The notes under the pieces are model-generated. The model made no database searches, was not told the origin of the DNA, and saw nothing but the letters and a program-made list of their open reading frames with translations. DNA of 64,000 bases from Mixta tenebrionis. Its GTDB lineage: Bacteria; Pseudomonadota; Gammaproteobacteria; Enterobacterales; Enterobacteriaceae. The stretch is taken from the NCBI RefSeq assembly GCF_006517625.1, contig NZ_VHQI01000003.1:186001-250000 (forward strand). Direction: 5' to 3'. Below, one piece after another: positions 9,163 to 13,337 of the stretch. The first letter of the stretch is position 1. Each line of letters opens with the position of its first letter. Made by a program: the position numbers and the translations under genes.

Positions 9163-10890
9163 CTATTCTTTCTCTTCCGGCACGCGCACGCCGATTTTAA
9201 CCACCTGATTATCTTCTTTCTCGGCAATCGTCCAGATGAGGTGGTTCCACTCAACCTGGTCGCCGACTACCGGCGCGCCGCCCAGCATGCCCAGAATGAG
9301 CTGGCCCAGCGACTGCTGATCGTTCGTCTCTTCATCCAGATCGAGCCCGTAAATTTGCGCCACATCGCGCAGCCGCGCATCGGCTTCCAGAATAAAGTCG
9401 CCGAAGAAGCGCTGATCGAGCGCCACCGGCGGCGACTGGCTGAACAGCTTGCCGAGCGCGGGCAGATCGCGCTCGCGTCCGATAACGCACAGCACGTCGC
9501 CTTCGCGCAGGCGGGTATTGCCGGTAGGATGCATCAATACGTTATTACGAAACAGCGCCGCGATGCGCGTTTCGCGCGGCATATGCAGATCGCGCAGCGC
9601 CGCGCCGACGCACCACTTATCGGCGCTGAGCTGGTAGACAAACTGTTCCCAGGGATTTTCGGGATGAATATCAAGCCCGGCGCGGCTGATCGGCGAGGCG
9701 GTAGGCGGCACGATCACTTTCGCCTTCCGCGCCGCAAAGCCCAGCGAAGTGCCCTGCAGCATCAGCGATACCAGCACCACGAAAAAGGCGATATTAAAGA
9801 ACAGCGAGGCGTTCTCCAGGCCCGCCATCATCGGGAATACTGCCAGAATAATCGGTACCGCGCCGCGCAGACCTACCCAACTGATAAAAACGCGCTCGCG
9901 CAGGGTAAAACTGCGGAAAGGCAGCAGGCCGATCAGCACCGAAATCGGGCGGGCAAACAGAATCAGCCAGAGCGACAGCAGCATCGCCGGCACGGCGATA
10001 TGCCAGAGATCGGACGGCGTCACCAGCAGGCCCAGCACCAGGAACATGCCGATCTGGCTCAGCCAGGCCATGCCGTCAAAGGTTTGTAAAATACCGTGCC
10101 GGTTGCGAATCGGGCGGTTGCCCAACAGGAAGCCGCAGAGGTAGACGGCGAGGATGCCGCTGCCTTCCAGCACCGTCGTCAGCGCAAACACCAGAATGCC
10201 GCCGCTGACGGCCAGCAGGGGATAGAGGCCGTTCGCCAGTGAAATACGATTGATAAGCTGCTGGATCGCCCAGCCGCCGCCCAGCCCCAGCACAATACCG
10301 AGACCGAACTGCTGAATAAGGTGTACGACAAACATCCAGCTCAGGCCGGTTTCGCCCCGCTGGATCATCTCAATCAGAGTGATGGTAAGGAACACCGCCA
10401 TTGGATCGTTGCTGCCGGATTCAATTTCCAGCGTTGAGCCGACGCGCTCGTTAAGCCCTTTATCGCCCAGCAGGGAGAAGACGGCGGCGGCGTCGGTTGA
10501 GCCGATAATGGCGCCGATGAGAAAACCCTGCATCAGATCGAGGCGAAACAACCAGGCGGCGGCCAGCCCGGTTAAGCCAGCGGTAATCAACACCCCGACC
10601 GTCGCCAGCGACAGCGCCGGGCCGAGCGCGACGCGCAGCGAGCTGGCGCGGGTACGCATGCCGCCGTCCAGTAGGATCACCGCCAGCGCAAGGTTAGAAA
10701 CCAGATAGGCGAGCGGGTAATTATCAAAAGCGATGCCGCCGATACCGTCTACGCCGGTCAACATGCCGAGCGCAAGGAAGATCACCAGAATAGGGATGCC
10801 AAGACGTGATGAAAACGAGCTAAGCAGAATGCTTGATGCCACCAGTACGGAACCAATAATGAAAAGACTGTATATCGTGCTGGCGTTCAA
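9163..10890 (-). CDS. cvrA: K+/H+ antiporter NhaP2 (CvrA)
   Basis: CPA1-family cation/proton antiporter of the inner membrane involved in K+ efflux and osmotic adaptation. 575 aa compared with 578 in E. coli CvrA. The membrane domain covers residues about 1-400, with the family stretches [22 protein letters not shown] and [13 protein letters not shown] (ND pair). It is followed by a cytoplasmic RCK_C/TrkA-C domain near residues 405-485 and a CorC_HlyC-type C-terminus. The start is TTG at 10890, preceded by GAGGAG at good spacing; no in-frame ATG nearby would keep the conserved N-terminus. Confidence 0.95.
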
Positions 10891-11054
10891 AGCGGCTTCT
10901 CCTCATAAACCAGGCCGGTCAAGACGATGCGGGACGTGGCGTTACTATAACCGTTTTAAAAACATAATGCTTTATCAATAGCTTGTCATAGCTGCTGCGG
11001 AAAGCGTTTTATACTTTGCGTGCCGGCCCGAATAACTGAACTGATTAAAAAAAA

Positions 11055-11074
11055 TACTGGATATCCAGCCAGTA
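11055..11074. promoter_or_regulatory. LexA-like palindrome overlapping the antirepressor promoter
   Basis: The 20-mer TACTGGATATCCAGCCAGTA has perfect 6-bp outer arms (TACTGG/CCAGTA) spaced by 8 bp, the geometry of an SOS box. By my alignment it matches the E. coli sulA operator at 16 of 20 positions. Both arms carry CTGG/CCAG where the consensus has CTGT/ACAG, so affinity could be low. It overlaps where a -35 would sit for a candidate -10 TATACT at 11080-11085. Confidence 0.35.
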
Positions 11075-11136
11075 ATCAGTATACTATTTGTACTCCCGCA
11101 TGGGGCTGTTGCTGTTTGCAAGTCAAGGGTGAAGCT

Positions 11137-11847
11137 ATGATGATTTCAACTGAGAGCCTGAATGCTCTTCATCAATCCGTCACGATGAGTAGCCGCGAAA
11201 TCGCAGAGATGACCGGTAACACGCATGGCGAGGTGAAACGTCTGATAAAGAGCCTGGAAACCGCGCAGCGGCTGTCGCAGCCGCTTATCGCCTGGGATTA
11301 CGAAGCTGAAGGAACGGTGCGCCAGGAATACCGCCTTAACAAGCGTGACTCGGTGCTGGCCGTAGCGCGCCTGTCGCCGGCGTTTACCGCCGAAGCGCTG
11401 GATCGCTGGCAGGAGCGTGAAAAGGTGGCGCACCTGCCCGATTTCACCAATCCGGCCGAAGCGGCGCGCGCCTGGGCTGAGCAGTTTGAGCAGCGCCAGA
11501 AGGCGGAGCAGCAGCTGGCGCTATTCGCCCCGAAGGCTGAGTTCTTCGATCGCTATGTTACGCTGGAAGAGGAGTCGCTCGGCTTTCGCCAGCTGTGCAA
11601 AATGCTGAAGGTTAAAGAACCTGATTTTCGCCAGTTCCTGCTGGAGCGCAACATTATGTACCGGCTGAACGGGACGCTGACGCCTCATCAGCAGCACCTT
11701 AGCGCCGGGCGTTTTACCTTACGCTCCGGCGTCGGTGAAAATCAGCATGCCTTTTCCCAGGCGCGCTTTACGGCGAAAGGGGTGAAATGGGTGGCCAGCC
11801 TGTGGGCGGGACATCTTGCTTCGCAACCGAAAGGCGCGGCAGCCTGA
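11137..11847 (+). CDS. Orphan phage-type antirepressor (Rha + KilAC domains)
   Basis: 236-aa DNA-binding regulator. Residues about 17-90 resemble the phage Rha domain (MSSREIAEMTGNTHGEVKRLI). Residues about 130-230 resemble the KilAC/ANT C-terminal domain of phage antirepressors (APKAEFFDRYV, LGFRQLCKMLKVKEPDFRQF, ARFTAKGVKWVASLW). A charged linker of about 35 residues joins them. ATG 11137 follows AAGGGTGAAG; ATG 11140 is equally possible. No integrase, repressor or structural phage gene is nearby, so it is a lone or domesticated gene. Phage antirepressors inactivate or outcompete repressors; its target here is unknown. A LexA-like palindrome lies 63 bp upstream and a terminator 40 bp downstream, giving a self-contained unit. 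Confidence 0.85.
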   Translation: MMISTESLNALHQSVTMSSREIAEMTGNTHGEVKRLIKSLETAQRLSQPLIAWDYEAEGTVRQEYRLNKRDSVLAVARLSPAFTAEALDRWQEREKVAHLPDFTNPAEAARAWAEQFEQRQKAEQQLALFAPKAEFFDRYVTLEEESLGFRQLCKMLKVKEPDFRQFLLERNIMYRLNGTLTPHQQHLSAGRFTLRSGVGENQHAFSQARFTAKGVKWVASLWAGHLASQPKGAAA

Positions 11848-11888
11848 GGACGTGACATGATAAAAGCAACGTGCTGCGCGGTGGTAAG

Positions 11889-11913
11889 AAGCCGGTCATA
11901 ACGACCGGCTTTT
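11889..11913 (+). terminator. Terminator after the antirepressor gene
   Basis: Stem AAGCCGGTC/GACCGGCTT (9 bp) with a 5-nt loop, followed by TTGGCTTTTGG. The T tract is interrupted, so moderate strength. Confidence 0.55.
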
Positions 11914-12010
11914 GGCTTTTGGCTATCGGCTGCGGGATAATAGCGGCTGGAGCCGGGCGGCGTCGGAGTCGCGTAGTCTCCGGCGCCGGCCCGCAACTGC
12001 AACAGCGTTC

Positions 12011-13288
12011 TCAATTCTCCGCCGTCTGTTTATGAAACAGTTCGCGGAATACCGGATAAATATCTTCCGGTTCGCGAATATGCTGAATGGCGAAGTTATC
12101 AAATGACGCCTGCAAATGTTCATATTCACGCCACAGCGTTTGATGCGCGCGCCGGGTGATCTCGATATAGCTGTAGTAACGCACCACCGGCAGGATATTT
12201 TTCGCCAGAATTTCGTGGCACAGCGGCGAATCGTCAGCCCAGTTATCGCCATCCGACGCCTGCGCGGCGTAAATATTCCACTGCGTCGGATCGTAGCGCG
12301 CCTTCACTACTTCATCCATAAGCTTAAGCGCGCTGGAAACGATGGTGCCGCCAGTCTCCTGCGAGTAGAAGAATTCCTGCTCGTCCACCTCTTTGGCCTG
12401 CGTATGATGGCGGATGTAGACCACTTCAACGTTTTTATAGGTTCGGCTCAGAAACAGATAGAGCAGGATATAAAAGCGCTTGGCCATATCTTTGGTGGGC
12501 TGATCCATCGAACCGGAAACATCCATCAGGCAAAACATTACCGCCTGGCTGGAAGGCTCCGGGCGTTTCTCAAAGTTTTTATAGCGCAGATCGAAAGTAT
12601 CGATAAAGGGGACGCGCTCAATCCGCGCCCGCAGCTCGGCAATCTCTTTTTTCAGCCGCTCCTCTTCCAGCAGCTGGATCGGCTCCGCTTTCTCTACCTG
12701 CAGCAGCGCCTCTTCCAGCTCGTGCAGCATACGACGTTTACCCGCCGTCATCGCGGTACGTCGCGCCAGCGAATTTTGCAGCGAGCGCACTACGCTGATA
12801 TTGGCCGGCACGCCGTTAGAGGTGAAGCCCGCGCGATGGGTTTTATACTCGTTCATCTGCCGCTGCTGCGTTTTACGCAGGTGCGGCAGCGCCAGATCCT
12901 CAAACAGCAGATCGAGATACTCATCTTTTGAAATCTGGAACACAAACTCATCCTGACCTTCGCCATCCTGGCTGGCGTTGCCCTGACCGCCGCCACCGCC
13001 GCCACCGCCGCCCTGAGGACGTTCAATGCGATCGTTCTGCACAAAGTGATCGTTGCCAGGATGGACGCGATGGCGGGTGCCGCCGCGGCCCTGATGAAAA
13101 ATGGGTTCGTTAATGTCATCTACCGGAATGGAAACGGATTCGCCACTTTCAACGTCGGTCACCGAGCGTTTATTAATGGCCTCGGAGATCGACTGTTTGA
13201 TTTGCGACTTATAACGGCGTAAAAAGCGCTGGCGGTTTACCGCGCTCTTGTTTTTGCCGTTAAGTCGCCGATCGATAAAATAGGCCAT
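12011..13288 (-). CDS. yeaH: YeaH/YhbH family VWA-like protein
   Basis: UPF0229 protein, 425 aa (E. coli YeaH 427 aa), working with the kinase YeaG in nitrogen-starvation and stationary-phase stress. ATG 13288 ([15 protein letters not shown]) is preceded by GGGGGAG; the nine codons further upstream are not conserved. Near residue 100 there is a run of nine glycines (RPQ followed by poly-Gly then [10 protein letters not shown]). The C-terminal half contains a von Willebrand A-like metal motif, [11 protein letters not shown], near residue 260. It is the second gene of yeaG-yeaH, 92 bp after yeaG. Confidence 0.95.
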
Positions 13289-13314
13289 AGCTCCCCCAAA
13301 CAACGTGGTAAGCA

Positions 13315-13337
13315 AGGTCGGACGCAGCGCCCGACCT
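13315..13337 (-). other. Hairpin between yeaG and yeaH
   Basis: Inverted repeat AGGTCGG/CCGACCT with a GC-rich 9-nt loop in the yeaG-yeaH gap. There is no T tract, so it is more likely an mRNA-stability or processing element than a terminator. Confidence 0.4.

Follow-up and report, generated by a model that had tools for sequence, protein, structure and literature searches.

A 236-residue open reading frame of the Mixta tenebrionis genome lies alone between cvrA, which encodes a potassium/proton antiporter (9163-10890, minus strand), and yeaH, a DUF444 gene (12011-13315, minus strand). All positions refer to the window, that is, the whole 64-kb stretch of DNA analysed. The gene and its neighbourhood downstream of the promoter comprise the following features.

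11137-11847, plus strand: orphan Rha-KilAC antirepressor-type gene, a 236-residue ORF called on domain and orthologue evidence (dN/dS 0.016-0.085 in 12 pairs, a rough estimate)
11185-11418, plus strand: Rha domain (Pfam PF09669, residues 17-94), a predicted winged helix, with model pLDDT of about 73-95 there
11437-11478, plus strand: linker motif PDFTNPAxAARAWA (residues 101-114), which leads into a long helix predicted at residues 106-141
11506-11808, plus strand: KilAC/ANT domain (Pfam PF03374, residues 124-224), with a predicted MerR-like winged helix at about residues 146-231
11887-11913, plus strand: possible terminator hairpin downstream of the gene, with an 11-pair stem (11870-11930 folds at z -3.4 against shuffles); the consensus scan made no terminator call here

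The gene product

The Pfam matches of the ORF are Phage_pRha at residues 17-94 (3.2e-07) followed by ANT/KilAC at residues 124-224 (7.7e-22), which is the order found in the Rha-KilAC family, and both phage domains are kept at full length. In PHROG the protein matches phrog_63, 'anti-repressor Ant' (8e-52), together with other regulator families. These matches and the flanking genes bear out the sequence-only reading, which had described a lone Rha+KilAC gene between cvrA and yeaH.

A structure model of the protein is of modest quality (mean pLDDT 76, pTM 0.40) and predicts winged helices at both ends. For approximately residues 146-231 the best match among solved folds is the RacA DNA-binding domain (Z 6.3, 61 residues, rmsd 2.3), with the MerR family also matched, and modelled residues 16-82 resemble the pSK1 Par centromere-binding domain, of ParA/Par type (Z 6.3 or less). 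All fold matches have Z of at most 6.3, a level that the tool itself rates as common. Among viral structure models 31 matched at E <= 0.001, ten of them annotated as antirepressor or KilAC, and a search of solved structures by sequence gave no credible match for the protein.

In an alignment of 33 orphan rows (the window and 32 of 41 loci) almost all positions of the linker motif PDFTNPAxAARAWA are invariant. Of 11 phage or prophage homologues that were found without a motif search only two have a version of this motif, and the other nine, the nearest relatives in the tree included, have a different one. We therefore rejected the idea that the motif is common to orphans and phage copies, and the protein has not simply kept the features of its phage kin. 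Invariance across a larger set of 51 rows is partly by construction, since the viral sequences in it were retrieved by means of the patterns PDFTNPA and FRQ[LV]CKM. The orphan linker is of PDFTNP type and that of the nearest tree relatives of PQTLPEALRLAADLAE type, while phages psageK9 and S1249 have the orphan type; judged from these linker types, a domain exchange at the origin of the orphan clade is possible.

A candidate LexA box in the promoter

The region upstream of the gene contains the following features.

11047-11054, plus strand: UP-element-like A-tract immediately 5' of the box, conserved in 48 non-redundant promoters
11055-11074, no strand assigned: candidate LexA (SOS) box TACTGGATATCCAGCCAGTA, called by sequence, CTG-N10-CAG, 21.4 bits on a LexA matrix from this genome
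11058-11063, plus strand: -35 hexamer TGGATA within the box, from a consensus scan (9/12 together with the -10, spacer 16)
11080-11085, plus strand: -10 hexamer TATACT, from a consensus scan; the commonest base at each of its six positions occurs in 27-45 of 48 promoters

The 20-mer at 11055-11074 occurs once within the window, and its arms, TACTG and CAGTA, are separated by exactly 10 bases. It shares 17 of 20 bases with this genome's own sulA box and presumably 16 of 20 with the E. coli sulA operator. The SOS-box geometry claimed from the bare sequence is thus upheld, with the full CTG-N10-CAG at 21.4 bits, as is the claim that the box overlaps the -35 position for a -10 TATACT at 11080. The -35 hexamer lies inside the box and the -10 hexamer begins six bases past it, an arrangement in which box and promoter overlap as in the SOS regulon.

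We aligned 48 non-redundant promoters of orphan genes anchored on the box, so that the box columns are conserved by construction. The conserved block starts about 12 bp 5' of the box and takes in the A-tract, the box, the -10 and a few bases past it, with almost no conservation farther upstream. The A-tract reaches 1.1-1.75 bits at positions -7 to -1 and 0.7 bits at position 0 in these 48 promoters, and may act as an UP element. The LexA consensus as quoted in PMC8072944 has T at box position 6. The G found there in the present box has probably been kept because this position doubles as a base of the -35 hexamer. In a promoter of Pantoea wallisii type (L032 and L220) the box is followed at once by another LexA-like one, AACTGTATACTTATCCAGCG, which overlaps the -10.

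LexA sites across the genome

The 4.66-Mb genome was scanned with the 11 fixed bases of the target box, ACTGGATA-N6-CAG. This gave 11 sites including the target, against four for the reversed-pattern control. Eight of the ten non-target sites lie upstream of SOS genes (ydjM, cho, uvrA/ssb, uvrD, uvrB, a dinI paralogue, recN and dinB) and the remaining two fall within unrelated ORFs. A sister pattern, ACTGTATA-N6-CAG, gave nine distinct sites against one for its reversed control; these belong to dinI, sulA, recA, lexA, yebG and dinB, with three more beside ORFs that in our own reading are phage- or bacteriocin-like. The identities of the genes behind the sites were confirmed with Pfam and NCBIfam family models.

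Since eight of the ten sites with the same fixed bases precede SOS genes, CTGGATA is, as judged from where it occurs, an ordinary LexA half-site in this genome. The sequence-only reading had remarked that both CTGT arms read CTGG; that observation is accurate, but the arms are no weakness, and we rejected a weak operator on this ground.

The LexA matrix rests on 14 boxes from this genome, retrieved by two fixed patterns of which the second was copied from the target, and on the first lexA box beside them. Because a training pattern was copied from the target, the matrix is sharper than an unbiased one would be and its leave-one-out scores are flattering. On this matrix the target reaches 21.4 bits and no other site in the window exceeds 12.3; the true boxes, left out one by one, span 9.0-26.7 bits, a range that includes the target; none of 49.9 million simulated positions reached 21.4 bits. 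Scoring the 20-mer with a LexA matrix, which had been suggested as a check, therefore came out strongly in favour of a LexA site. Which genes lie behind the sites is nevertheless a less circular argument than the matrix score.

The scans also turned up sites at other genes. A strong LexA-type box (G000:C2:150157, L089) precedes a small ORF that has no Pfam match and that could be another SOS-controlled prophage regulator; the long ORF 5' of it is one that we take to be phage-replication-like. Near-perfect LexA-type boxes precede two ORFs (G000:C19:723, L092, and G000:C23:56471, L094) that are presumably bacteriocin-like. A second DinI-family gene has its own CTGG-type LexA box (G000:C11:5529, L104).

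Conservation of the box in orthologues and its absence from phage homologues

Orthologues were gathered by protein similarity alone, without use of the box, and were separated from the prophage type by identity (at least 62% for the orphan type and at most 53% for the prophage type). The box is present at all 76 orphan loci (41/41 and 35/35, the window included), with scores of 15.9-28.4 bits; these represent 68 distinct promoters, eight pairs having equal promoters. All 20 orphan promoters fetched later also carry it (16.2-23.8 bits), of which 15 are new and five repeat earlier promoters. Conservation of the palindrome upstream of orthologues, which the sequence-only reading had made a test of its proposal, is thus complete in 76 of 76 loci and in 15 of 15 new promoters. 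This, the score of 21.4 bits and its absence from 49.9 million simulated positions led us to reject a chance palindrome.

In this strain the 20-mer encloses a perfect palindrome of 12 bp, CTGGATATCCAG, as would be expected if the site were the operator of another regulator, or of the protein itself, rather than of LexA. The inner palindrome is however not conserved in orthologues, which have for example CTGGATATTTAAACAG, whereas CTG-N10-CAG is kept throughout their promoters, and SOS genes of this genome have the same half-site in front of them. We consequently rejected an operator for another protein on the inner palindrome, and regard a regulator other than LexA at this site as very improbable.

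Homologues of phage type gave a different picture. No LexA box was found at seven prophage homologues (best score 3.5 bits) or at seven phage homologues out of 772 records (best score 7.4 bits). Of 79 homologues tested on viral contigs, from a total of 87, 78 stayed at or below 9 bits throughout 400 bp, and the remaining one had a site of 13.0 bits without a CTG arm; these sites were measured from the start of the match, with an enterobacterial matrix that may not suit all hosts.

A single clade under purifying selection

A maximum-likelihood tree of 73 rows placed all 50 orphans (the window, 30 of the 41 loci from genome contigs and 19 from a wider genome search) in one clade with 100/100 support. 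A long stem sets them apart from the 23 phage and prophage rows (seven phages, 12 of 80 viral loci and four of seven prophage homologues). The nearest outside group, with weak support, comprises enterobacterial prophages, Escherichia phage Flotzy and two long-branched viral rows. In all likelihood, then, a phage Rha-KilAC gene was domesticated once.

Twelve chosen pairs gave dN/dS of 0.016-0.085, indicating purifying selection, in a rough NG86 estimate for which dS is often near or above 1. Relative to two other Mixta the protein is conserved to much the same degree as cvrA and yeaH (95% and 95-97%, respectively); relative to two more distant carriers with the gene at the same site, it is less conserved than these neighbours (84-85% and 91-93%).

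We also considered that the gene might still be phage-borne. Only one viral contig has a close copy (98%), IMGVR_UViG_2791355151_000001, and this is the chromosomal edge of a Mixta prophage call near an integrase. The other viral loci from two scans of viral contigs (79 kept of 86 found) all have identities of at most 55%, and the idea was rejected.

Distribution and neighbourhoods

In Mixta the gene is found in eight of eight genomes, with one copy broken; cvrA adjoins it in all eight and yeaH lies inside the 1.5-kb flank in six. Outside Mixta its distribution is patchy. A sample of the family gave matches in 27 of 198 genomes at E <= 1e-60, two of which (48-49% identity) have the prophage type only, leaving 25 genomes (19 of 154 genera) with an orphan gene. 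A sample of the order gave seven of 394 genomes, one with the prophage type and hence six with an orthologue. The orphan gene is therefore missing from most genomes sampled in family and order. It is present in 38 of 61 genomes of a Pantoea-type genus and in 12 of 61 of another genus (g144). None of 5,426 complete E. coli genomes had a DNA match that spanned 80% of the query, in a search able to detect identities down to about 65-70%; partial matches occurred in five, and the one viewed was a prophage homologue.

Neighbourhoods were viewed for the window and 41 loci. Their immediate neighbours fall into 17 arrangements, or 13 if those with a common neighbour are merged. No phage family was found among the immediate neighbours in the 13-17 neighbourhoods scanned; of 30 neighbour proteins 28 match non-phage families and two match none. 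In Pantoea vagans C9-1 the gene lies on the 530-kb plasmid pPag3 amid transport and metabolic genes. One clade occurring in many neighbourhoods, with the box at every orphan promoter examined, indicates that gene and promoter move or persist as a single unit.

The exception is one Mixta genome (G003) in which a stretch of about 20 kb (G003:C1 2495992-2516033; L112, L113) lies between the orphan gene, which is frameshifted, and yeaH, directly beside the broken copy. By our reading of its ORFs the stretch carries an integrase and an S24-type repressor, and no direct repeat of at least 12 bases was found at its ends. A second broken copy occurs in Candidatus Pantoea haifensis (L053:4977-5707), where the usual Pantoea neighbours are replaced downstream by a series of small leftward ORFs, which is unusual. 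Given these two broken copies, the gene is dispensable.

Two further genomic observations concern copy number. In a Pantoea-type genome (G574) the orphan gene is listed twice with equal scores, on contigs C29 and C30, by duplication or as an assembly effect. The genome of the window itself also encodes a distant homologue (G000:C45:262935-263579; L002, L111) with 33% identity and without a LexA box, in a stretch that to us looks like prophage and has a repressor-like ORF.

A phage-family protein at the locus, and the prophage inserted just downstream in one Mixta genome, might suggest a prophage remnant with a chance palindrome. Purifying selection, the single clade, the conserved promoter, the non-phage immediate neighbours and the position beside cvrA in all eight Mixta genomes argue against this, and we give it next to no probability; with the box at 76 of 76 loci and no phage family among 30 neighbour proteins, we rejected it for practical purposes. 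The clade apart from phages, the purifying selection and the non-phage neighbours lend support instead to the earlier suggestion of a domesticated, stand-alone gene.

Relation to prophages

In Pantoea, 24 of the 38 carriers have portal genes, as do 18 of the 23 non-carriers (p = 0.26), which is no significant association in a crude comparison that ignores phylogeny. The GpA terminase was found in six of 38 carriers and two of 23 non-carriers, phylogeny again being ignored. Among six annotated phage records with the same domain architecture that were viewed, the gene lies by cI and replication genes in three and away from the immunity region in the other three.

Discussion

Collectively our data show that the gene has a conserved promoter in which a LexA-type box covers the -35 region, and from the sequence evidence it is almost certainly under LexA control. 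It is thus very probably an SOS gene absent from the current list. In this genome it has the half-site TACTGGATA, CACTGGATA or AACTGGATA in common with the E. coli-type SOS genes recN, uvrB, uvrA/ssb, cho, ydjM and uvrD. These serve mainly in repair or are other genes of the host, whereas the orphan is of phage origin and patchily distributed.

The closest functional precedents are phage genes. According to PMC3121763, Gifsy GfoA/GftA/GfhA, 186 Tum and N15 AntC have a LexA box at their promoters, as the orphan does, and the Gifsy antirepressors act on the repressors of other prophages and can release them. By analogy, the orphan product too is predicted to be a regulator of phage type that works in trans once DNA is damaged. 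The known proteins are small, Tum having 146 residues and the Gifsy ones about half that (PMC3121763), and are encoded within prophages, whereas the orphan is a stand-alone host gene for a 236-residue Rha-KilAC protein with no surrounding prophage in this genome. It has, by sequence, its own LexA-type promoter and does not lie inside a prophage. It may therefore work like a LexA-controlled prophage antirepressor, but we do not file it as one because no phage family was found among the immediate neighbours scanned.

By domain content the nearest relatives are the temperate-phage Rha-KilAC proteins (phrog_63; for example in Escherichia phage Flotzy and Yersinia phage vB_YenM_29.18). They share the two domains with the orphan, in the same order, and are up to about 48% identical along their full length. 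They differ from the orphan in sitting in phage gene blocks, in lacking a LexA box of their own where tested and, in nine of 11 cases, in their linker. Rha of phi80 and P22 represents the family of the orphan N-terminal domain, and Roi-named proteins are among the matches. Rha and HK022 Roi are phage genes described through IHF-dependent or general effects on lytic growth, and the available portions of the sources mention no SOS promoter (PMC4936722, PMC3430580). A further comparison is Rem of the Qin cryptic prophage in E. coli K-12, like the orphan a phage-derived antirepressor kept in the host, and one that affects host physiology (PMC10448788). Rem lies in a cryptic prophage and relieves repression by DicA of the same prophage, and the abstract of that paper states no LexA control.

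We searched the open-licence literature, from which subscription papers are mostly missing, and found no report of a stand-alone LexA-controlled antirepressor, nor any experiment on a member of the orphan clade, among the matches listed. LexA-controlled antirepressors are known in phages; what appears to be new, as far as sequence evidence goes, is a stand-alone version that is under selection in hosts of several genera.

We propose the following model. LexA bound over the -35 region would hold the gene off, as the box, its geometry and its conservation suggest. On DNA damage RecA filaments bring about self-cleavage of LexA, with derepression of its targets, and the orphan promoter would then fire. 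The product would be a phage-derived regulator, presumably dimeric, with two predicted winged-helix domains joined by the linker motif and the long helix, and would interfere in trans with phage-type repressors or their operators. Resident prophages, also those with repressors that RecA leaves uncleaved, would thereby be tied to the host SOS response. As to its history, the gene would have left phages once and then acquired its LexA promoter, and the clade and its neighbourhoods suggest that the promoter-plus-gene unit has since moved among sites and genera. Taken as a whole, an SOS-controlled, domesticated gene that still does its phage job in trans has close to an even chance of being correct, the doubts slightly prevailing.

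The least certain step is the target of the protein. Because both domains of the phage proteins are retained, a phage job in trans is the function most likely to have been kept. Action on prophage repressors, which rests on family resemblance and on these retained domains, is nonetheless a tentative proposal, and one we hold the more loosely because the linker motif is not common to most phage relatives. 'Antirepressor' is mostly a family label for this protein, and from the model its 236 residues and two DNA-binding-like domains fit a DNA-binding regulator at least as well.

With the same LexA switch, the protein could now be a host transcription factor that acts on chromosomal promoters after DNA damage and has dropped phage repressors. 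This would fit the two predicted winged-helix domains, with fold matches to RacA/MerR at about residues 146-231 and to pSK1 Par at residues 16-82, although matches at Z of 6.3 or less are of a kind the tool calls common. Strong purifying selection points the same way, as do retention in all eight Mixta genomes, which need not share prophages, and a linker that is near-invariant in the clade yet unlike that of most phage homologues, as expected after a change of role. The full length of both phage domains speaks against such a change, and we consider a host factor somewhat doubtful, though a serious candidate.

It is also conceivable that the protein, again under the LexA switch, restrains phages by blocking or delaying the lytic growth of induced or incoming phages during SOS. 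A gene kept by the host should benefit the host, and in one Mixta genome the gene is broken with a prophage inserted beside it, although a single broken copy is anecdotal. In PMC4936722 phi80 Rha is termed an antirepressor, yet what is described there is that phages are kept from growing in IHF-deficient hosts; of HK022 Roi, PMC3430580 says only that it is implicated in lytic growth. These precedents would make a brake on phages plausible, but the Rha and Roi effects require IHF deficiency, and carriage of the gene in Pantoea shows no association with prophage portal genes. We regard such a role as improbable. Our order of preference is accordingly action on phage repressors, then a host regulator, the two being close, and then the restraint of phages. 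In its most far-reaching form, the preferred reading is of a host-owned antirepressor in the SOS regulon that frees heterologous prophages, those with RecA-uncleavable repressors included, and travels between genera as one gene with its LexA promoter. This full form is unlikely, although not remote.

Few bacterial stress responses have been mapped as well as the enterobacterial SOS regulon, of which the orphan gene is a conserved and selected candidate member. That the DNA search of E. coli genomes gave no full-length match may explain why it was overlooked. If prophage repressors are what the protein acts on, the host would control the induction of prophages in these bacteria; if its targets are host promoters, the SOS response would gain a downstream transcription factor.
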